From: Gallionellales bacterium GWA2_60_142
Lineage (GTDB): Bacteria > Pseudomonadota > Gammaproteobacteria > Burkholderiales > Gallionellaceae
Reading direction: 5' to 3'
NCBI GenBank assembly: GCA_001801085.1
Contig: MGWR01000011.1
Coordinates: 1-64,000 of the forward strand
Length of the DNA stretch: 64,000 nucleotides
The notes beneath the pieces were generated by a model, which ran no database searches, was not told where the DNA came from, and saw only the letters and a list, made by a program, of their open reading frames with translations. The stretch's first letter is position 1. Every line of letters starts with the position of its first letter. The position numbers and the translations under genes were made by a program. Shown piece after piece: positions 27,216-46,202 of this stretch.

Positions 27216-30200
27216 TCATTTATTGGCATCACGTACCGTCACCTCAAAATCATCACAGAGCTTATCAACCAAGTCTTCGGTTTCCTTAAAGAAATAATCT
27301 CCAACAGCCTGGCGATTGAGCGCCTTGTAACGGCGGAATATCTTCGCAAAGTCATCGTAAATCTCATCCTCTGACACATGCGACTTGATCTTTACAATCA
27401 GTCGCTCACCCTCAGTGGCGTTACGCACGTGCTGAAAAAATTCTTGAATTTTGGCGTCGAACTCCTGGATCAGCGTTCCCGTCAGAGCTTCATGCTCGTT
27501 CCGCGCGGCGATGATTTCGAGAATATCGAATTGGTAACCTCCGCCGGGCGGCTTACCCTCAGCCACTTTGAGTGGCTTCTTTTTTGTTTCAGTCGGGGTA
27601 TAAGCTGCGACTTCAATAATCCCGATCTGGTTATCGAAATACACCTCAATCGGGTCTTTCACATCCTCGCTGCGATGCATCATGTTGTAGAGCGTATTGA
27701 ACTTGCGCCAGAAAAATAGCAGGCCGGGTTCGCTATATTTCGCATCCAGATCGATCACATACTCGATGCGATTGAGGATCGTAAAATACTGGGCGACCTT
27801 GGCTTTGGTGTCGGCAGTGCGCTGAGGGTTGGCATCGATGTACTTCTTCAAACTGCTTTCAAAATCCAGAAAGCTTTCCGGTGCGTCTCGCTTCACGCGG
27901 TCCTTGTAGATCGCCATGAATACGTCGAAGAACTTATCGTAAGTATCCGATTTTTTCAGATCGGCCAGCAGAATATCCAGCACCTTCTTGTCGCCAAACG
28001 GATCGAAGTCGCTCACCACCACATCGGAGTAATGCTCGAACGCATCTTTGATGTTTTGCACGTTCACATTGTTGTAGGAGAAATCCACGATCTTGCAGTC
28101 GTTCTTGTGTTTGGCCGTGCGGTTGACGCGGGAAATGGTTTGAATGGCGCTGATACCCGTGATCTCCTTGTCCAGAAACAAGGTGTGCAATTTTTTCTCA
28201 TCGAAACCGGTTTGCAGCTTGGCCACCACGATCATCAGGCCGTTATTGTTGGGGCGCGCAAAATTCTCCAGTACTTTTTCCTCCGACAGGCCACCATTCA
28301 TCCCCGATGCGCTCTGCTCGTCCTGATTGCTCGAATACACCACATGAATGGGCGCGTCGGCATATTTCGCATACTTGGGTTCTTGCACCAACACATTGAA
28401 GTGTTTGGTCACAGCTTGCTGGTAGGCAATCGCAGCCTTGATGGAATAAACCGCCAGCATCGCCTTGCCCGTGCCGCGAATCTGGCGATACACATCTTTC
28501 ACCAATAAATCTGCCACGTATTTGGCGATGGCGTCGATGCGCTCGCGATTCTCATAAACCTGCTTTTTCTGCGCGTCCTTGTATTCCTTCTCGGTGAAGC
28601 CTTCCAGCGGGTTGCTGGGCAAGTCGAACAACATTTTGGAAGCCACAGGCACAATGTTTTTTAGCGGGTTCAGGATAAATCCGTCTTCAATCGCCTCTTT
28701 CATGGTGTAGCTATCAAAAGGCCGCCACAGCTTCTCGCTTTCGGCATAGCCGCTGAATTCACCGAAACGCGCCAGCGTATGATCATCCGGGGTGGCGGTA
28801 AAACCGACAATCAGATTCTTCTTGGTGTGGGCTGCGGCATACGCGGCATTGTCAAACGGGCTTTGCAGCTCGTCGAATATGCTTACCATATCCTCGTGCT
28901 GGTCGCCGCTGTTGGAGCGGTGTATCTCGTCGATCAGGAACGCGATGCGCATATTGGCGAGCTTCTTGAGTACGTCTGCATCCAGCATCTCGCGCACCGC
29001 GCCGAATTTCTGCAAGTTCACGATCACCAACCGGGTATCGGAGGCCAGCGCCTCCTGAAAGGATTTCTTGTCCTTCGCCTCCATGACCATGCGGTTATCG
29101 ATGTTCATGTTCAGCATCAACGAATCGATCTGTCCGCGCAGTTGCAACCTGTCAACAACGATCATGATCTTGTCGTAAACATATTCGCCATTGCGCCGCA
29201 GGTCTTTCAACTGCAAGGCAGACCAGCCGATGATGTTTGATTTGCCGAACCCCGCCGCGTACTGCATCAGCAGGGAATACACGTTTTTGTTATTGGAATA
29301 GGCTTTGCGCTTTTCCAGCAGCTCTTTTTTCTTGGCTTCGCCTACGCCCGCCAGTTGCTTCTCCAGCAGCTTTTCAAAGTAATCGGGCTCCTGCTCATGC
29401 ACCAGAAACTCATCGATCTTAGACATGATCTTGTCGGTGCCAAATTTCTGCTTGGGGCGCGGTGAGATCAAATGACCGGTTTCATTCTTGACCTCTTTCA
29501 CACCCTTGATGACAACCACATCGCGCTCGATGAAGTTGTAATACAGAATCTCTTTTTCGATGTAAAACTTGCCATACAGCGCGGAGAACAGCTCTTTCAG
29601 CTTTGCCTGCTTATTATTTTCCGGCTTGTCGGCATCGGGCTTCAGCAGCGGATAAGGCTTGAACACGCCGTGAGCTTTTTTCTCGATCTCTTCGCGGTCG
29701 AACTTACCCTCGCGGCAGGTTGCTAAAATCTCGTCGAAATAATCCGCGATAGTGCGGATCACAAAGGTCTCGCCGATATCGGTGGTGGTGATATGAATCG
29801 CCTTCTCGAAAATCTTCAAGAAGTCCTTGCGATACCCCAGTTTTTCGCCGTCGCTCAGCATGGCGTTGTTGTCGATATGCTGGTGATAGACCTTCACCGC
29901 TTCGAAGTAATCCTTGATGACCTTGCCACGGCCATTCTTGCTGGCGCTCTGGTTGGTGTAATTGGACTTTAATTCGCTGTAGCCCAGATAAATGCCGTTC
30001 ACAAACAGCACCACATCCGGGCGGAAAGAAAACACCTGCTTGCCCTGAAAACTGTATTTATACGGCAGCTCCTGCACCACGGAGAAGATGTTCTCGTCGA
30101 ACAGCGCATTGTCGTGAATCACGCTGTCGCTGGTGTAAAACAGATGCAGCTTGATGCCCTGCAAGTTAATGGACTTGTTGGCATTGATGAACAAAGCCAT

Positions 30201-30452
30201 GTTGCGGCTGCTGGCGATACGCTCCTGGATCAGCGCGATCAGTTCTTGCAGCAACAGCTTTGCATCGCCGTGGTATTTCTTCAGCAGGGCCTCATAAGGC
30301 TTTTTATTCAGCTCGGTGTCCGAGATAAACGCCTGCAAGTCTTCCTCGATAATCAGCACTTGCGTGACGGTGTTGGCTTTGACTTCCTTATAGCCCAGCC
30401 CATCCCGAAAAAACGGAATCAGGAATTTATCTTGCAGGTGCAGTTCGTTCAT
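27216..30452 (-). CDS. hsdR: Type I restriction enzyme, R (endonuclease/translocase) subunit
   Basis: ATP-driven DNA translocase and nuclease of a type I restriction system. 1078 residues. The N-terminal nuclease domain has a PD-ExK arrangement (SFRPDVVLF near residue 146 and YSELKSN near 161). Superfamily 2 helicase motifs follow: a Walker A-like AAGFGKSNIIGWSA near 398, the DEAH-box variant LIDEIHRSN near 507, and VGFTATPDDHT. The C-terminal part binds the methylase complex. The ATG overlaps the end of the GxxExxY gene as ATGA. It is the last gene of the hsd operon, which looks AT-richer than its surroundings. Confidence 0.95.
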   Translation of the reverse strand: MNELHLQDKFLIPFFRDGLGYKEVKANTVTQVLIIEEDLQAFISDTELNKKPYEALLKKYHGDAKLLLQELIALIQERIASSRNMALFINANKSINLQGIKLHLFYTSDSVIHDNALFDENIFSVVQELPYKYSFQGKQVFSFRPDVVLFVNGIYLGYSELKSNYTNQSASKNGRGKVIKDYFEAVKVYHQHIDNNAMLSDGEKLGYRKDFLKIFEKAIHITTTDIGETFVIRTIADYFDEILATCREGKFDREEIEKKAHGVFKPYPLLKPDADKPENNKQAKLKELFSALYGKFYIEKEILYYNFIERDVVVIKGVKEVKNETGHLISPRPKQKFGTDKIMSKIDEFLVHEQEPDYFEKLLEKQLAGVGEAKKKELLEKRKAYSNNKNVYSLLMQYAAGFGKSNIIGWSALQLKDLRRNGEYVYDKIMIVVDRLQLRGQIDSLMLNMNIDNRMVMEAKDKKSFQEALASDTRLVIVNLQKFGAVREMLDADVLKKLANMRIAFLIDEIHRSNSGDQHEDMVSIFDELQSPFDNAAYAAAHTKKNLIVGFTATPDDHTLARFGEFSGYAESEKLWRPFDSYTMKEAIEDGFILNPLKNIVPVASKMLFDLPSNPLEGFTEKEYKDAQKKQVYENRERIDAIAKYVADLLVKDVYRQIRGTGKAMLAVYSIKAAIAYQQAVTKHFNVLVQEPKYAKYADAPIHVVYSSNQDEQSASGMNGGLSEEKVLENFARPNNNGLMIVVAKLQTGFDEKKLHTLFLDKEITGISAIQTISRVNRTAKHKNDCKIVDFSYNNVNVQNIKDAFEHYSDVVVSDFDPFGDKKVLDILLADLKKSDTYDKFFDVFMAIYKDRVKRDAPESFLDFESSLKKYIDANPQRTADTKAKVAQYFTILNRIEYVIDLDAKYSEPGLLFFWRKFNTLYNMMHRSEDVKDPIEVYFDNQIGIIEVAAYTPTETKKKPLKVAEGKPPGGGYQFDILEIIAARNEHEALTGTLIQEFDAKIQEFFQHVRNATEGERLIVKIKSHVSEDEIYDDFAKIFRRYKALNRQAVGDYFFKETEDLVDKLCDDFEVTVRDANK

Positions 30453-30874
30453 GATTGAGGTCGGTTCACGCGGAGGCGCGGAGACGCGGAGGATGGAAGT
30501 TTGTTGACGATGCGCTGGAGGCCTTCCTTAAGCGTCGCGGCTCCAAAGTTGATGAGCAAACCAACGGAAAGGTTCATCAAACGAAGATAGGTGAGAAGTT
30601 GTTTGCTGTGGACGGGGGCGAGTTTCTCCACAGACTTGAGCTCCACGAGCACACGGTTTTCAACGAGGAGGTCTATGCGGAACCCTTCCTCAAAAACCAT
30701 CCCATCGTATTCAAAGCAAATAGCCTTTTGCCGCTCGACTTGAAATCCCCGCTGTTCGAGTACCCGAGCCAACACCACCTCATAGACAGACTCCAACAAC
30801 CCCGGCCCCAGTTCCATATGAATCTTCACCGAGGTATCGACGATTGCTCCTGTAATTTCATCCAGTTCTTTCAA
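30449..30874 (-). CDS. GxxExxY protein (PD-(D/E)xK nuclease-like)
   Basis: 141 residues. The name-giving motif is G25-x-x-E28-x-x-Y31 in GPGLLESVY, followed by a nuclease-like core with D68 and E78-x-K80 (GFRIDLLVENRVLVELKS). The family is uncharacterised; the fold suggests DNA cleavage or binding. The start is TTG at 30874, with GGAGGA six bases upstream at 30881-30886, inside an inverted repeat. The last residues (SASPRLRV) are read through the opposite copy of that repeat, and the TGA overlaps the hsdR ATG. It appears to be a cassette inserted in the hsd operon. Confidence 0.85.
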   Translation of the reverse strand: MKELDEITGAIVDTSVKIHMELGPGLLESVYEVVLARVLEQRGFQVERQKAICFEYDGMVFEEGFRIDLLVENRVLVELKSVEKLAPVHSKQLLTYLRLMNLSVGLLINFGAATLKEGLQRIVNKLPSSASPRLRVNRPQS

Positions 30875-30909
30875 TGTTTTTCCTCCGCGATCTCCGCGAC
30901 TCCGCGTGA
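30466..30909. mobile_element. Putative GxxExxY cassette bounded by inverted repeats
   Basis: Left repeat 30466-30493 and right repeat 30881-30909 are inverted copies of a 28-29 base sequence built of CCGCG and CTCCGCG units. They differ by one inserted base and one substitution. The inner end of the right copy supplies the GGAGGA ribosome binding site of the enclosed gene. I see no target duplication and no transposase, so movement would need a trans-acting enzyme or recombination. That it is mobile is inference; the repeats and their symmetry are read directly. Confidence 0.55.
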
Positions 30910-30963
30910 GACAAAAGTATCCGCGTCAATCAACTCCCCGCTCAGCAGCTTAGTCGTTGCCAT
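30871..30963 (-). CDS. 30-residue open frame, possibly the remnant of an interrupted hsd-operon gene
   Basis: The ATG at 30963 lies three bases after the stop of the upstream AlbA/ATPase gene and opens a 30-codon frame, MATTKLLSGELIDADTFVSR and ten more residues. The last 12 codons are inverted-repeat sequence and the few bases after it. It ends TGA overlapping the TTG start of the GxxExxY gene. The first 18 residues look like the start of a normal protein cut off by the cassette. It may alternatively be a leader peptide for coupling. I cannot assign a family. Confidence 0.4.
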   Translation of the reverse strand: MATTKLLSGELIDADTFVSRGVAEIAEEKH

Positions 30964-30966
30964 GTT

Positions 30967-32292
30967 TTATAAAACCTCTGGCTTGACGGTAATATAGCGC
31001 TGCTTGGGGCTTTTAGGCTTATCCGGGAAAGTGAGCTCTAATTTGCCGGAGTCAATGAGAGGCTGTAAAAACGTTTTGCGAAAATACGTGCGATGACTCA
31101 AGCCTAGATATTGCATCATTTCGCTGACCGAACGCGGAGTTGCACAAAATCGTAACAATTTGTCAGCTTGGTCACTAGCTTGGTCACTAGCTTGGTCACT
31201 AGCTTGGTCAAACCCCTCCGCATAAGGCAACACCAGCCGAATAAAGTTGGGGGTGAAATGGTAAATGCTGCGCGGGTAATACTCCAGAATTCGCGGTACA
31301 CCCGAGCCGAGCTGCTCAACCATGTCCAGATCCCGAAACACGCGCATGAGCTCCTTGTTTTGCGGAACCGAATAGCCCATGAAGAATTCTTCTTCATCGA
31401 ACCCGGCAGGCAGTCCACCGGCAGAGGTAATCTCCAGGCGGTCAGAAAACAGCTCGAACTTTGGCGGCACTTCATTGCTGTAATTGTTGTGGATGATGGC
31501 GTTGATAACCGCCTCGCGCAGCGCCACCGGGTTCAACAGTTTGCGCTGTTCGCGCATCCCCGGCGTAATGCGCGCAAAGGTTTTGTTCTCGACCTTGAGC
31601 TTTTCCAGCACCGCCTTGGTGGCCTTTACCAGCGAGCAATAGCCGTACTCTTCGTTTTCGACCAGATTCACCCTGTCGGCGCCCGCATACTTGGCAACCT
31701 TGATCGACAGCCCGTTTACGTCCGAGAGCAAATACGCGGCGTAATTGTATGCGTTGTCCTCGGTGAGCAACTCCAGATTGTGCGCGAACTGCTCATTCAG
31801 TTTTAACGGTGTTTCGTTGTAATAGATTTTTAACTGCTCGAAGCTCAGCGTCTGTTTGCGCGACTTGATGGTGCCGATGGAATTGCGGATTCTGCGCCCG
31901 AACAAATCCTCGATCATCCTGACCGGCATAGGCTCAGAGGCGCTGCCGATGCGGATGTAGCAGCCCTTGGCGGACATGCCCATTCTGGAAAGGTAATACG
32001 GCTTCTCGGAACCGCTGGCCACCGTGATCTTGACGATCTTCTTTCCATCGCGAGTTTCGGCAATCACGTCGAACAGCCCCATGGTCGATGGGCTGATATT
32101 GTTCTTGATGCGATCCTTGATTTTCAGTTGCAGCGCATCGGCATCCTCAACGCCGATGGTCGCTTGAGATTGATCGTCGATGCCGATATAAATCACCCCA
32201 CCATCCCGATAATTGAGGAAAGCGACCACCTCCTTTTCCAGAAAGTCGGTCAGTTCGCGCTTGAGTTCGATACGGTTGGATTCCTGCATCAC
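30967..32292 (-). CDS. AlbA_2/Schlafen-type ATP-binding regulator linked to the hsd operon
   Basis: 441 residues. An N-terminal AlbA_2 DNA-binding domain spans about residues 1-115 (ESNRIELKRELTDFLEKEVV, GGVIYIGIDD). A GHKL-type ATPase region follows (LREAVINAIIHNNYS, DRLEITSAGGLP, MVEQLGSGVPRIL), then a C-terminal winged-helix-like segment. This architecture is annotated as RecG-like or transcriptional regulator and often lies in type I restriction operons. Residues near 365-378 are four SDQA units from a 12-bp DNA repeat. The ATG overlaps hsdS by four bases. Confidence 0.82.
   Translation of the reverse strand: MMQESNRIELKRELTDFLEKEVVAFLNYRDGGVIYIGIDDQSQATIGVEDADALQLKIKDRIKNNISPSTMGLFDVIAETRDGKKIVKITVASGSEKPYYLSRMGMSAKGCYIRIGSASEPMPVRMIEDLFGRRIRNSIGTIKSRKQTLSFEQLKIYYNETPLKLNEQFAHNLELLTEDNAYNYAAYLLSDVNGLSIKVAKYAGADRVNLVENEEYGYCSLVKATKAVLEKLKVENKTFARITPGMREQRKLLNPVALREAVINAIIHNNYSNEVPPKFELFSDRLEITSAGGLPAGFDEEEFFMGYSVPQNKELMRVFRDLDMVEQLGSGVPRILEYYPRSIYHFTPNFIRLVLPYAEGFDQASDQASDQASDQADKLLRFCATPRSVSEMMQYLGLSHRTYFRKTFLQPLIDSGKLELTFPDKPKSPKQRYITVKPEVL
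31165..31210. repeat. 12-bp tandem repeat, nearly four copies, inside the AlbA/ATPase gene
   Basis: AGCTTGGTCACT repeats with exact 12-base spacing at 31165, 31177, 31189 and (partial) 31201. Being a multiple of three, it encodes a run of SDQA units without shifting frame. Copy-number change would lengthen or shorten the linker before the C-terminal domain. Confidence 0.9.
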
Positions 32293-33524
32293 GCCACCTT
32301 GATTTTGCCCGTGACTACATCGTTGATCAGCGTCTTGCGCAGTTCCCGGAGTTTGTCGATCTGGGTGTTGAGGGCGGCGACGATGCGGTCGATGTGGGTG
32401 GTTTTTGAGTCGAGGTAGGCGGCGATGGTTTGTTGCTCTTCAAATGGCGGCACAGGAAGTAATAACCGCTTTATTCGATCAACCGCCAAACCTGGTTGAG
32501 CGGCGGATACAGAATATTGATTGAGGTTCATTACTCGGAGCATTTCTCCGTACCATTTCATATTGATGGAGCGATTTAGGTACACAACGACTGCGTGCTC
32601 AGATGCCCAAAATTTTCCAGACACGTAATTGATATTCCCACACAAAGCTCCTTGTCGTCCTATTAGAATGTAGTCGCCATTGTTTGTGTATATTGAAAAA
32701 TATCCTCGTAAGCCATTGCCTCCATAAACGGGATATAGCCCTGCCTTTTCAATTTGCTCTGACACAATTGTGTTGCCACTTTGAAGTGAAGATAAATCTT
32801 TAATGCGCTTCACCTCCCAATGCGCTGGCACTTCACCTATCCACTCGACCCCGCTATCTTTCATCGCCACGGTTTTATCCAGCCCACGGGTGACGGTCTC
32901 GTTGATCAGAGATTGTTTGAGCTTGCCGTATTTTTCCGCCTTCTGGACTAGCAGCTCTATTTTGCGATCAAGCTGCGCGGTTTTTTCGTCGAGGTAGGTT
33001 GCGATGGCGGTTTGTTCTGTTCCATCCGGCAATGCTGTTTGTATTTGAAAAAAATCCTTGGGGTATAGTCTTAATCGAGAAGACACAATTCCCTTCGAAT
33101 TTCTCGTCATTTCCGTTATTGCATGGGGCGTTCGATATAAATAGTCGAAATATCTATGATCGTAATGCGCATGTTTTTTCGGTCGATAAACACCATAAGC
33201 GGGGCTGCAAATGCCAGCTTCGTTGGCTGTCCCCAATGCACCCATCCAGGCCCACATAGTGTTGATAATCAGGTCACCTGTTTGGCAAAGTTTATAGCCC
33301 TCCATAGTCTCGGCCATAAACATGTTTACATTTTTCTCAGTGCGGCGAGTAACCCCGGTTATATGAGATACGGTGAGTAAAGTTTCATCACCAGAAATAC
33401 TCAAGTCACCTCGCTCCTCAAAAATATCTTTATTCCTTGTGACTTCCCAGTGCGCTGGCACTTCGCCCAGCCACTCCACGCCGCTGTCTTTATAAGTGCC
33501 ATAGCGGGCATGGGCGTAACTCAC
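32289..33524 (-). CDS. hsdS: Type I restriction enzyme, S (specificity) subunit
   Basis: Recognises the bipartite DNA target for methylation and restriction. 411 residues in two tandem halves. Each starts with nearly the same sequence (KDSGVEWLGEVPAHWEV near residue 12 and KDSGVEWIGEVPAHWEV near 221), followed by a variable target recognition domain, and ends in a coiled-coil conserved region (EQTAIATYLDEKTAQLDRKI; EQQTIAAYLDSKTTHIDRIV). The second recognition domain looks AT-rich. It overlaps hsdM upstream and the AlbA/ATPase gene downstream by four bases each. Confidence 0.95.
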   Translation of the reverse strand: MSYAHARYGTYKDSGVEWLGEVPAHWEVTRNKDIFEERGDLSISGDETLLTVSHITGVTRRTEKNVNMFMAETMEGYKLCQTGDLIINTMWAWMGALGTANEAGICSPAYGVYRPKKHAHYDHRYFDYLYRTPHAITEMTRNSKGIVSSRLRLYPKDFFQIQTALPDGTEQTAIATYLDEKTAQLDRKIELLVQKAEKYGKLKQSLINETVTRGLDKTVAMKDSGVEWIGEVPAHWEVKRIKDLSSLQSGNTIVSEQIEKAGLYPVYGGNGLRGYFSIYTNNGDYILIGRQGALCGNINYVSGKFWASEHAVVVYLNRSINMKWYGEMLRVMNLNQYSVSAAQPGLAVDRIKRLLLPVPPFEEQQTIAAYLDSKTTHIDRIVAALNTQIDKLRELRKTLINDVVTGKIKVA

Positions 33525-35572
33525 AGCGTCATCCCCGCTTCCAGCGCCTGCAACTCTTTATCCAGTGCGGCAATCTCGCCCAGTATCGCGCCCACTTCGC
33601 GCAGCTTCTCCGGTTGGTAAAAAATCTTGTTGAAGTTTATCTCCACGCCCACGACGTTTTCCAGAAACTGGAACGGCTTGCTGATGTACTTCGCCATGAA
33701 GGCGGCAATGGCGGTCTGGTTGGCGGCCGTGTCCTTGTGGAAAGGAATGATCTCGTAATCCTTCTGATAGTCTGGCGTGAGTTCCACGCTGATTTCGATG
33801 CGTTCGGGCTGGGTCTTGCTGGCTTTTTTCAGAGCGGATTTGACGACAATTTTGCCGCAGCCCAGTGCTTCATTCTTCCCGACGGTTTCCTTGATCAGGG
33901 TTTCGCGCTCGTTATCGAAAAAGTATTTCCCTTGGCTGGTGACGACGACCAGCGGCTGTTCCTTGTAATCCAGGCTGGCAATGAAGGGTTTGAGGTATTG
34001 CTCAAAATATTCCTGTAGGGTGGGCTGCCCGCCACTATTCTCGAAATCGCTGCTGGTAATGACGAATTTTGTGATTTCACGCTCGCCGTTGCTCAGGCTA
34101 ATCGGTGTAAGTTTCTCGCTGCACTTTCCTTCCTTCAGTTTGACCGCAAAGCTGTTGCCCTGCTCATCCACGTTGGTGAGCATGATTGCCTGTTTGTTGA
34201 AGTAGAAAAACTCCTTGTCGAACACGCGGGCATAGTCGTTGTCCTTGTAGGCGGTAAGCGTGGCGACGATGTCGAGGCGACTGGCTTCATCGACTTCCTT
34301 GCGCTTGGAGCCTTTACTCGGTTTTATCGGCTTGGATTTTTCGCGGGCGTTTATCAGCATCACTTTGTCTTTGTGGTGCGGCTGTTTGTTTTTGTTCAAC
34401 ACCCACAGATAGGTGTAAATGCCGGTGTTGAAAAATTCGTCGGTCGGCAACTGGATTACCGCTTCGACCACGTCGCTGTCCAGCATCCATTTGCGGATGT
34501 TGCTTTCCGCCGAACCGGCATCGCCGCTGAACAGCGTCGAGCCGTTGTGCACCACCACGCCCATGCCGACGCTGTCGAGCTTGGAGATGAGGTGCTGCAT
34601 GAACAGCAGTTGCCCGTCCGAGATCGATGGCACAAATTTGAAGCGCCCGGTCTTGTCGTGGGTGATGTCTTTTTCATAGCCTTTCCAGCTCACGCCATAG
34701 GGCGGATTGGCGACGACCACATCGAATTCTTCGTTGTAAAACTTATCGTCCACCAGCGTGTTGCCGTGTTCGATTTTGGAATCGGGGCGAAAGCGACTTT
34801 CGATCTTCGCCAGCGCGTACAGCGCGTCGTTCCAGTCCTGGCCGAAGGTTTGCGTCAGCCGTTTGAATTTCTGGTTGATGCGGTCTTCCACGCCGAACAG
34901 CATGTTGCCGCCGCCGCAGGTACAGTCGTAGATTTTCAGTAGGGTGTCGGATTCTTCGATCTTGGAGGCGATAATTTCGGCGATCAGCGCGATCACGTCG
35001 TCCGGCGTGTATTGCTCCCCCGCCGTTTCGGCAGAGATGTCCGCCCACTTGCGTTTGATGTGCTCTTCCAGCGTGGTGATTTCGGAGTTGTTGAAAGGCT
35101 TAAGGTCGATCTCCGCCCACAGCTTGGTGTAGCCCAGCAGGATTTTTTTGGCCTTGAGCTTGGTGACCACGCCCTTGATGTCGAGGAATTTCTCGCCCTC
35201 GGTCGCGTCCACGCCGAGCAGGTCTTTGGTCTCGCCGTCGAAACCTTTGAGGTAGGCTTCAAAGTCGATATCGAACGATTTGTCGTTCTTGCAGATGTCG
35301 GTTAGCGACTGGCTCTTTTCAAAAATGAAGATGTTGTAGCCTTGGCCTTCATCCTTGATCAGGTCGTACAGATCGTCTTTCTTGATCCCGGCAAATTTCT
35401 TTTCGCCGATATCGGCCTTGAGATTGTCGAACATCCGCATCAAGCGGCTCTCGATCATCACCAGCGCAAAAAACGGCATCATGAAAGACGGCCATTCCGA
35501 TTCCTTGATGCCGCAACCGCGCAACAAGTCCGCCGTCGCCCAGATTTTAGATTCGTACTGGAGGATGTTCAT
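33521..35572 (-). CDS. hsdM: Type I restriction enzyme, M (adenine methyltransferase) subunit
   Basis: N6-adenine methyltransferase of the system. 683 residues. The catalytic motif IV is VANPPYGVSW near residue 289, and the AdoMet-binding motif I is YDCTCGGGNMLFG (usually DPTCGSGG). LNKNKQPHHKDKVMLINARE and the C-terminal helical part follow the family pattern. It is the first gene of the hsd operon; the 200 bases upstream contain no gene I can support. Confidence 0.94.
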   Translation of the reverse strand: MNILQYESKIWATADLLRGCGIKESEWPSFMMPFFALVMIESRLMRMFDNLKADIGEKKFAGIKKDDLYDLIKDEGQGYNIFIFEKSQSLTDICKNDKSFDIDFEAYLKGFDGETKDLLGVDATEGEKFLDIKGVVTKLKAKKILLGYTKLWAEIDLKPFNNSEITTLEEHIKRKWADISAETAGEQYTPDDVIALIAEIIASKIEESDTLLKIYDCTCGGGNMLFGVEDRINQKFKRLTQTFGQDWNDALYALAKIESRFRPDSKIEHGNTLVDDKFYNEEFDVVVANPPYGVSWKGYEKDITHDKTGRFKFVPSISDGQLLFMQHLISKLDSVGMGVVVHNGSTLFSGDAGSAESNIRKWMLDSDVVEAVIQLPTDEFFNTGIYTYLWVLNKNKQPHHKDKVMLINAREKSKPIKPSKGSKRKEVDEASRLDIVATLTAYKDNDYARVFDKEFFYFNKQAIMLTNVDEQGNSFAVKLKEGKCSEKLTPISLSNGEREITKFVITSSDFENSGGQPTLQEYFEQYLKPFIASLDYKEQPLVVVTSQGKYFFDNERETLIKETVGKNEALGCGKIVVKSALKKASKTQPERIEISVELTPDYQKDYEIIPFHKDTAANQTAIAAFMAKYISKPFQFLENVVGVEINFNKIFYQPEKLREVGAILGEIAALDKELQALEAGMTL

Positions 35573-46129: not shown

Positions 46130-46164
46130 TCCTGGGAAACCCGGATTGACCCACGAAAGACACG

Positions 46165-46202
46165 AAAGCCGCATGGTGGGCGCTGCCCGCCATGCGGCTT
46201 TT
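46165..46202 (+). terminator. Strong hairpin terminator between convergent genes
   Basis: A 15-bp stem with one G-T wobble (AGCCGCATGGTGGGC and its partner) around a three-base loop, bounded by AAA on the left and TTTT on the right, so it can serve the regulator gene on plus and, less well, the CorC-like gene on minus. Confidence 0.82.

Follow-up and report, generated by a model that had tools for sequence, protein, structure and literature searches.

The window, a stretch of 64,000 nucleotides from the Gallionellales bacterium GWA2_60_142 genome (a MAG, 80% complete), contains a restriction operon on the minus strand in which hsdM (33521-35572) is followed by a complete hsdS (32289-33524), a gene with the Pfam domains SLFN_AlbA_2 and HATPase_c_4 (AlbA-type gene, 30967-32292), a GxxExxY gene (30449-30874), and an hsdR-like gene (27216-30452) whose product scores 138.6 bits, under the NCBIfam hsdR cut-off of 284.55. 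The GxxExxY gene starts with TTG and encodes a predicted PD-(D/E)XK nuclease of 141 aa. It is boxed by two inverted arms, each made of three CGCGGAG units with spacers of 1-2 bases. The upstream (right) arm, read on the minus strand from 30909 to 30881, is TCACGCGGAGTCGCGGAGATCGCGGAGGA (29 nt; units at 30883-89, 30892-98, and 30900-06), and the downstream (left) arm, on the plus strand at 30466-30493, is TCACGCGGAGGCGCGGAGACGCGGAGGA (28 nt; units at 30469-75, 30477-83, and 30485-91); the two are alike except for one substitution and one inserted base. The ribosome site GGAGGA (30881-30886) is part of the right arm, and the TTG start (30872-30874) lies six bases past it. The left arm lies inside the gene and is translated as its final codons (..SSASPRLRVN..), and the stop codon overlaps the hsdR start in the sequence ATGA (30449-30452). 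In an alignment that assumed no unit, the inverted-repeat score of this locus is 46, compared with a median of 17 and a maximum of 28 in 300 shifted control windows. An earlier note on this DNA had described a nuclease-like gene placed between the AlbA-type gene and hsdR and boxed by inverted copies that differ at one substitution and one insertion, the right copy giving the GGAGGA and the left copy the last codons up to the hsdR ATG; this anatomy was borne out.

The 141-aa protein matches TIGR04256 (2e-39, 134.6 bits vs. a cut-off of 35) and PF13366 (4e-39, 133.9 bits vs. a cut-off of 22), the latter being its sole Pfam match; the Pfam scan detected no Y1 (HUH) transposase domain, and the NCBIfam and Pfam profiles detected no known transposase domain. 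In an alignment of 69 subfamily rows including the window protein (rows 55-86% identical to it), the residues H19, G25, E28, Y31, D68, E78, K80, H89, K91, and Y96, among others, are invariant. We take H19, D68, E78-x-K80, and Q92-xxx-Y96 to be the Cas4/RecB-type motif set, and the active site of the predicted nuclease is likely composed of D68, E78, and K80, with H19, G25-E28-Y31, and Q92/Y96. A sequence search of solved structures with the window protein gave no match. The structure model (pLDDT 88.5) supports a PD-(D/E)XK fold; the nearest solved structure is SSO0001 (4ic1, Foldseek E 4.5e-4, Z 8.8 over 106 residues), presumably a Cas4 protein, the next structural rows have Z values from 8.0 to 6.4, and Cas4 and archaeal Hjc structures are found among further rows. 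By the best structure match the nearest PD-(D/E)XK subfamily may be the Cas4 type. Two other identities were considered and rejected, i.e., a defence gene or restriction subunit (no PADLOC model matches the 141-aa protein) and a phage origin (no PHROG match, and no match to the window protein in the phage collection). Matches to the window protein occur in 8 of 72,556 plasmid records.

The window genome has one GxxExxY gene. The double CGCGGAG unit has four exact matches in this genome, all within the cassette arms; when one mismatch is allowed, there are two matches elsewhere, compared with 10 given by the reversed control. Other units have a small number of arrays (2 CGCAGATT and 5 CACGAAA matches) and no gene of those types. 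At 46152-46167 of the window, just past a gene end, stands the array CACGAAA-GA-CACGAAA, built from the unit of another GxxExxY clade, with no inverted partner by eye up to 46400. The AlbA-type gene itself carries 12-bp tandem repeats (AGCTTGGTCACT) at 31165-31200 encoding repeated S-D-Q-A; its relative in L117 has another repeat (ACCCAAGAAACT) at the same place and another C-terminus, as if a domain had been swapped.

Inverted arms and protein clades

GxxExxY loci were collected by a family search in 158 Gallionellaceae genomes (45 with a match, 30 loci kept) and by a similarity search of contigs (80 kept of 301). They are the best-scoring loci, neither random nor independent, and many come from MAGs, in which a contig may be binned with the wrong host. 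Arms were scored by local alignment of the upstream flank with the reverse-complemented downstream flank, no unit being assumed, and a locus was counted as having arms if its score exceeded 25, the control's 99th percentile. After three duplicates of the window locus were dropped, 110 loci remained, of which 101 had distinct cores and flanks of 120 nt or more on either side. Inverted arms were detected at 79 of these 101 loci and in 1 of 300 control windows taken at shifted positions of the same loci; the median score was 39 vs. 17 in the controls (control maximum 28), and swapping the flank partners between loci brought it down to 20. Another 27 Gallionellaceae loci were fetched, of which 18 could be tested (the others are fragments or cut by a contig end) and 15 have arms. 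The three failing loci are L276 (score 25, with a visible CACGGAT-like pair) and L275 and L265 (units, no clean pair). Among eight remote members on plasmid records, from Bacteroidota, Fusobacteria, Spirochaetota, Gemmatimonadota, and Sphingomonas, four pass the arm test, one via whole hairpins on either side. The same unit is found on both sides, in inverted orientation, at 89 of the 110 loci. As a rule, then, GxxExxY genes lie between inverted arms in which a unit of approximately 7-8 bp is repeated in tandem two or three times, and the idea of a unique local cassette was rejected, since the arms are general to GxxExxY loci. In one CACAGAG-type cassette (L271, 950-1136) the downstream arm has grown to 21 tandem units.

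The self-translating design proposed in the earlier note recurs among the CGCGGAG-type genes: of 55 such genes, 29 have a unit whose end is no more than 12 nt from the first residue and 29 have a reading frame that ends in ATGA (both counts without control), and in 39 the 3' part of the reading frame includes a unit. The two counts without control, together with the GGAGGA supplied by the arm in the window, are in keeping with a model in which the arms act at the RNA level, forming a stem or a terminator in the mRNA and so adjusting how both cassette and operon are translated, and in which the left arm could mask the ribosome site in the right arm. We regard this model as very improbable: the genome-wide arrays matched to protein type (see below) are left unexplained by it, and no Rfam family reached its gathering score when 10 loci with gene-less hairpins and L001 were searched, the 11 listed matches (miRNA and RAGATH-31 models) all being under their thresholds.

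The units were typed post hoc, from a list drawn up after the flanks had been viewed. By this list, the 110 loci comprise 59 CGCGGAG, 14 CGCGAAG, 12 CACAGAG, 8 CGCAGATT, 3 CACGAAA, and 2 CACGAAG loci, one each of CACAGATT, ACAGGAT, and CACAAAG, and 9 untyped loci; the units CACGGAT and CGCCAAG were found in further loci. On the protein tree the unit changes 11 times, where the minimum possible is 8 and shuffled types give a mean of 40.1 (0 of 200 shuffles as low), with the provision that this is a quick protein tree of 110 rows (106 different) and few columns and that near-copies favour such clustering. Several units occur within one host family, each with its own protein clade, and CGCGGAG is kept across records titled Verrucomicrobiota, Planctomycetota, Pseudomonadota, Thermodesulfobacteriota, Myxococcota, Chloroflexota, Gemmatimonadota, Acidobacteriota, Armatimonadota, and Lentisphaerota. 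The relatives of the window protein, the best outside match being at 86%, come from at least 10 phyla by record title; as many records are MAGs, individual host labels could be in error. Judged from the sequences, unit type varies from one protein clade to another and, whatever the host, keeps to the protein tree.

In the protein alignment, column 120 (window protein) holds H or Q in 49 of 54 CGCGGAG rows and R or K in 11 of 13 CGCGAAG rows, and its residue tracks two apparent unit switches (L112 and L102), a test confounded by ancestry. It is a possible candidate for a specificity residue.

Genomic contexts and origin of the window cassette

The DNA between the AlbA stop codon and the right arm (ATGGCAACGACTAAGCTGCTGAGCGGGGAGTTG...) is not a neutral spacer. 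On the minus strand its frame ..KLLSGEL.. (30910-30963) runs into the arm (SRGVAEIAE), and 21 bp at 30931-30951 are identical to the 3' ends of hsdS-like genes in L036 and L038, where they end a TLRDTLLPKLLSGEL tail and other DNA lies between the tail and the cassette. In L042, a similar tail closes an hsdS gene (Pfam Methylase_S) that immediately precedes the arm and cassette, with hsdR next in order. A similar tail in L060 (20 of 21 bp) runs into a unit arm (SRGGAECAE) approximately 0.9 kb before the GxxExxY gene. The segment in the window is a probable 3'-end relic of a foreign hsdS, unlike the C-terminus of the complete hsdS of the window operon, and the cassette probably arrived with it, in a shuffled restriction operon. 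Because of the relic beside the cassette, it is unlikely that the cassette inserted cleanly between AlbA gene and hsdR; this was rejected as the simplest story, and the last step was probably recombination.

Orthologous loci with and without a cassette were compared. There is no cassette before hsdR in G020, G065, and G155, in which hsdR is 95, 94, and 93% identical, respectively, to that of the window. For the proA|lpdA junction, 30 loci of one genus were fetched and 26 had a proA end recognised by pattern; two of these 26 readable junctions hold a CGCGGAG cassette and 24 are without it, with gaps down to 17-20 nt. For sdhA|sdhB, 30 loci were fetched and 17 had a recognised sdhA end; three (L146, L147, and L173) hold a CGCAGATT cassette and 14 do not, the gaps being 10-13 nt in three of the latter and filled by other repeats or genes in others. 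The genes sdhA, sdhB, proA, and lpdA were named by reading of the proteins, and fabD|fabG (below) by annotation. No target-site duplication or precise empty site was resolved at AlbA|hsdR, proA|lpdA, or sdhA|sdhB, where the flanks are too diverged or rearranged. The mobile cassette of the earlier note is therefore upheld in part: the cassette is recurrent and is present or absent among relatives, a clean insertion is unlikely here on account of the hsdS relic, and movement is what we infer.

Two side observations were made at these junctions. At sdhA|sdhB and proA|lpdA (L146-L175 and L357-L386), many kinds of repeat gather in one genus, other members of which have gaps of 10-50 nt. At proA|lpdA in L017 and L360, a hairpin element of approximately 95 nt is repeated several times in tandem, with the cassette in the midst of the copies.

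Among 53 downstream neighbours scanned (of 67 within 350 nt), 10 match HSDR_N, 13 ResIII, and 3 RE_endonuc; five of the hsdR matches are one lineage (L036 and four at 84-90% identity to L036). Ten upstream neighbours chosen for the scan gave 3 Methylase_S (L042, L044, and L091) and 2 N6_N4_Mtase matches (L069 and L104). Since restriction genes are frequent neighbours, restriction operons are plausible vehicles for the spread across phyla. The same neighbours, and the hsd operon around the window cassette, would fit a model in which type I/III restriction operons have the GxxExxY gene as an accessory part, the repeats being incidental, but we hold this to be improbable: many contexts are unrelated to restriction (fabD|fabG, adenine deaminase|mannose-1-phosphate guanylyltransferase, sdhA|sdhB, and proA|lpdA), the five hsdR matches come from a single lineage, the protein matches no PADLOC model, and the three close hsdR orthologues lack the cassette. 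The observations support the description of the GxxExxY gene and its arms as a recurrent cassette found in many unrelated contexts.

Unit arrays in Gallionellaceae genomes

Double-unit arrays of four units were counted in the 158 Gallionellaceae genomes. CACAGAG arrays occur in 97 genomes, CGCGGAG in 38, CGCAGATT in 68, and CACGAAA in 93. The reversed control pattern gave 0 to 5 matches per strand in nearly all genomes; for CACAGAG it gave 29 and 22 in G116 and more than 5 in G090, G113, G115, G118, G140, and G149, and tightly spaced CACAGAG arrays themselves include the reversed control string. When the genomes are grouped by the type of their GxxExxY gene, the median array numbers (in the order CACAGAG/CGCGGAG/CGCAGATT/CACGAAA) are 64/0/2/0 in the CACAGAG-gene carriers (n = 17), 0/13/2/2 in the CGCGGAG-gene carriers (n = 5), 40.5/0/25/12 in the CGCAGATT-gene carriers (n = 10), and 17/0/4.5/77 in the CACGAAA-gene carriers (n = 10), compared with 1/0/0/1 in the genomes without a GxxExxY match (n = 113). 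These carrier rows cover 37 of the 45 carriers, the other eight having other or untyped units; genomes with two types enter both rows, and some broken genes (G086, G125, and G135) are counted as carriers. After four own-arm matches are subtracted, same-type carriers exceed other-type carriers for all four units (p 4e-4, 5e-3, 3e-4, 1e-4), and when the types are shuffled among the 45 carriers, 0 of 20,000 permutations reach the observed match, likewise within genera. Carrying a GxxExxY gene of a given unit goes with enrichment in arrays of that unit. The CGCAGATT-gene carriers have more CACAGAG than CGCAGATT arrays (medians 40.5 vs. 25), and some array-rich genomes have no GxxExxY match (63 CGCGGAG arrays in G077, 112 CACAGAG in G101, and 99 CACGAAA in G033), which could be losses or incomplete assemblies. 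A single GxxExxY match is found in 33 of the 45 carrier genomes.

The arrays that were read out form inverted pairs too close together for a gene. Such gene-less pairs were found at 13 places in nine genomes, spanning 91-200 nt; a few of their interiors are alike (e.g., L292 and L294), most are dissimilar, and by eye the interiors are unlike GxxExxY gene remnants. G140 has 20 gene-less hairpins of 65-83 nt; these also have their outer flanks partly in common, so that the moving unit may exceed the arms. The earlier note had regarded repeats without a GxxExxY gene as an argument against a mobile cassette. They do exist in the relatives, although for CGCGGAG not in the window genome; because array numbers match the gene type, the gene-less repeats favour the partnership of gene and repeat rather than oppose it. 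The term "non-autonomous", applied in the same note to the cassette, did not hold up, since the gene encodes a predicted nuclease and is the best candidate to act on the repeats; it is the gene-less hairpins that look like dependent members.

Tandem-unit arms also box a second kind of gene. TIGR02436 four-helix-bundle genes, which are unrelated to the nucleases, are present in 80 of the 158 Gallionellaceae genomes, and 22 of 28 testable loci (of 30; L235-L264) are boxed by tandem-unit inverted repeats, vs. 0 of 56 controls. Their units, e.g., TAGTCGT, GGATTCA, and TAGCTGG, are unlike the GxxExxY units. Because these genes are boxed alike, the boxed gene need not be the mover. Some other host or element activity might spread the hairpins, the GxxExxY and four-helix-bundle genes being merely carried and the match of unit to gene reflecting shared ancestry; arrays in genomes without a GxxExxY gene and hairpin interiors mostly unlike each other could be read in the same way. 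We find such a passenger role rather unlikely, in view of the type-specific match for four units, within genera and with own-arm matches subtracted, and of a unit that keeps to its protein clade from phylum to phylum and is not the same for different clades of one host family; an invariant nuclease active site would also need a reason in a mere passenger.

A proposed nuclease-repeat system and its known counterparts

The reading we prefer, and consider fairly probable, is that nuclease and repeat act together as a system, of which the cassette is the member that codes for the protein; its mode of working would resemble that of RAYT/REPIN, with an enzyme of other descent. The GxxExxY protein would recognise its own unit in the arms and cut or nick there, perhaps on a hairpin exposed as a single strand, and repair or copying would then spread the hairpins and, occasionally, the gene-bearing version. 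The window cassette would be a passenger of a shuffled hsd operon, its unit array not having spread in the window genome. This partnership rests on correlation and phylogeny, and is the most economical account; cutting, copying, and movement are the steps that we infer. More tentatively, and with somewhat less confidence than an even balance would allow, we propose that GxxExxY proteins are sequence-specific nucleases of a second repeat-propagating class in bacteria and archaea, whose enzyme is unrelated to that of RAYT/REPIN, with each clade reading its own heptamer (roughly CRCNRAN) and spreading its hairpins; that the four-helix-bundle genes form a third class with other units; and that many of the so far puzzling hairpin repeats dispersed in environmental genomes may be due to these classes together. 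A large family whose annotation is simply "GxxExxY protein" would thereby gain a concrete and testable role, tied to repeats whose copies number in the tens to hundreds in some genomes. With a unit-to-clade code, DNA recognition can be tested directly, and the system offers an independent nuclease-repeat instance in which to examine how REPIN-like hairpins spread. In the open-licence PMC literature, "GxxExxY" has incidental mentions only (a description elsewhere is possible), and neither six of the repeat strings nor PDDEXK_3 were found there; the portion available of a paper on heptamer repeats (PMC4679880) has no mention of S23 or of an endonuclease.

Several known systems resemble the cassette in part. 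With the Cas4/RecB-like nucleases, the GxxExxY protein shares the predicted fold and the residue order D, ExK, QxxxY, but it stands alone, is approximately 125 aa long, and is boxed by repeats. MITEs and insertion sequences likewise have gene-bearing and gene-less members with common ends, and terminal inverted repeats around the gene; they differ in that the GxxExxY cassette has no known transposase domain and the gene-less interiors that were read are, by eye, unlike gene remnants. No target-site duplication was resolved in the diverged or rearranged flanks. The ORF of the S23 intervening sequences presumably belongs to the four-helix-bundle family (TIGR02436). Intergenic four-helix-bundle genes of the Gallionellaceae genomes are boxed in the same way as GxxExxY genes. 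The intervening sequence of the Coxiella 23S rRNA is described as 428 nt long with one small ORF and a 28-bp stem from terminal inverted repeats, and is thought to be horizontally acquired (PMC4990558). The S23 protein is however unrelated to GxxExxY, and the elements are located within rRNA, from which RNase III cuts them out.

The closest parallel is RAYT/REPIN, for which PMC3116915 describes a protein gene flanked by short repeats, dispersed inverted hairpin pairs, a repeat type that co-evolves with the protein type, and usually one gene per genome. The GxxExxY gene is likewise flanked by a repeat, inverted pairs are dispersed in carriers, and the repeat type is linked to the protein type; the gene is also mostly single-copy (33 of 45 carriers), and the window protein has matches in 8 of 72,556 plasmid records and in no phage record. 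The likeness fails in the window genome, which has no dispersed copy of the CGCGGAG unit. It differs further in that GxxExxY is a predicted PD-(D/E)XK nuclease with no Y1 transposase domain, and in that its arms are tandem arrays of 7-8-bp units instead of one palindromic REP. Because the enzyme is unrelated, the GxxExxY system is not a member of the RAYT/REPIN family; the arrays matched to the gene type, many of them in gene-less hairpins, suggest a way of spreading repeats that until now has been seen only with another sort of enzyme.
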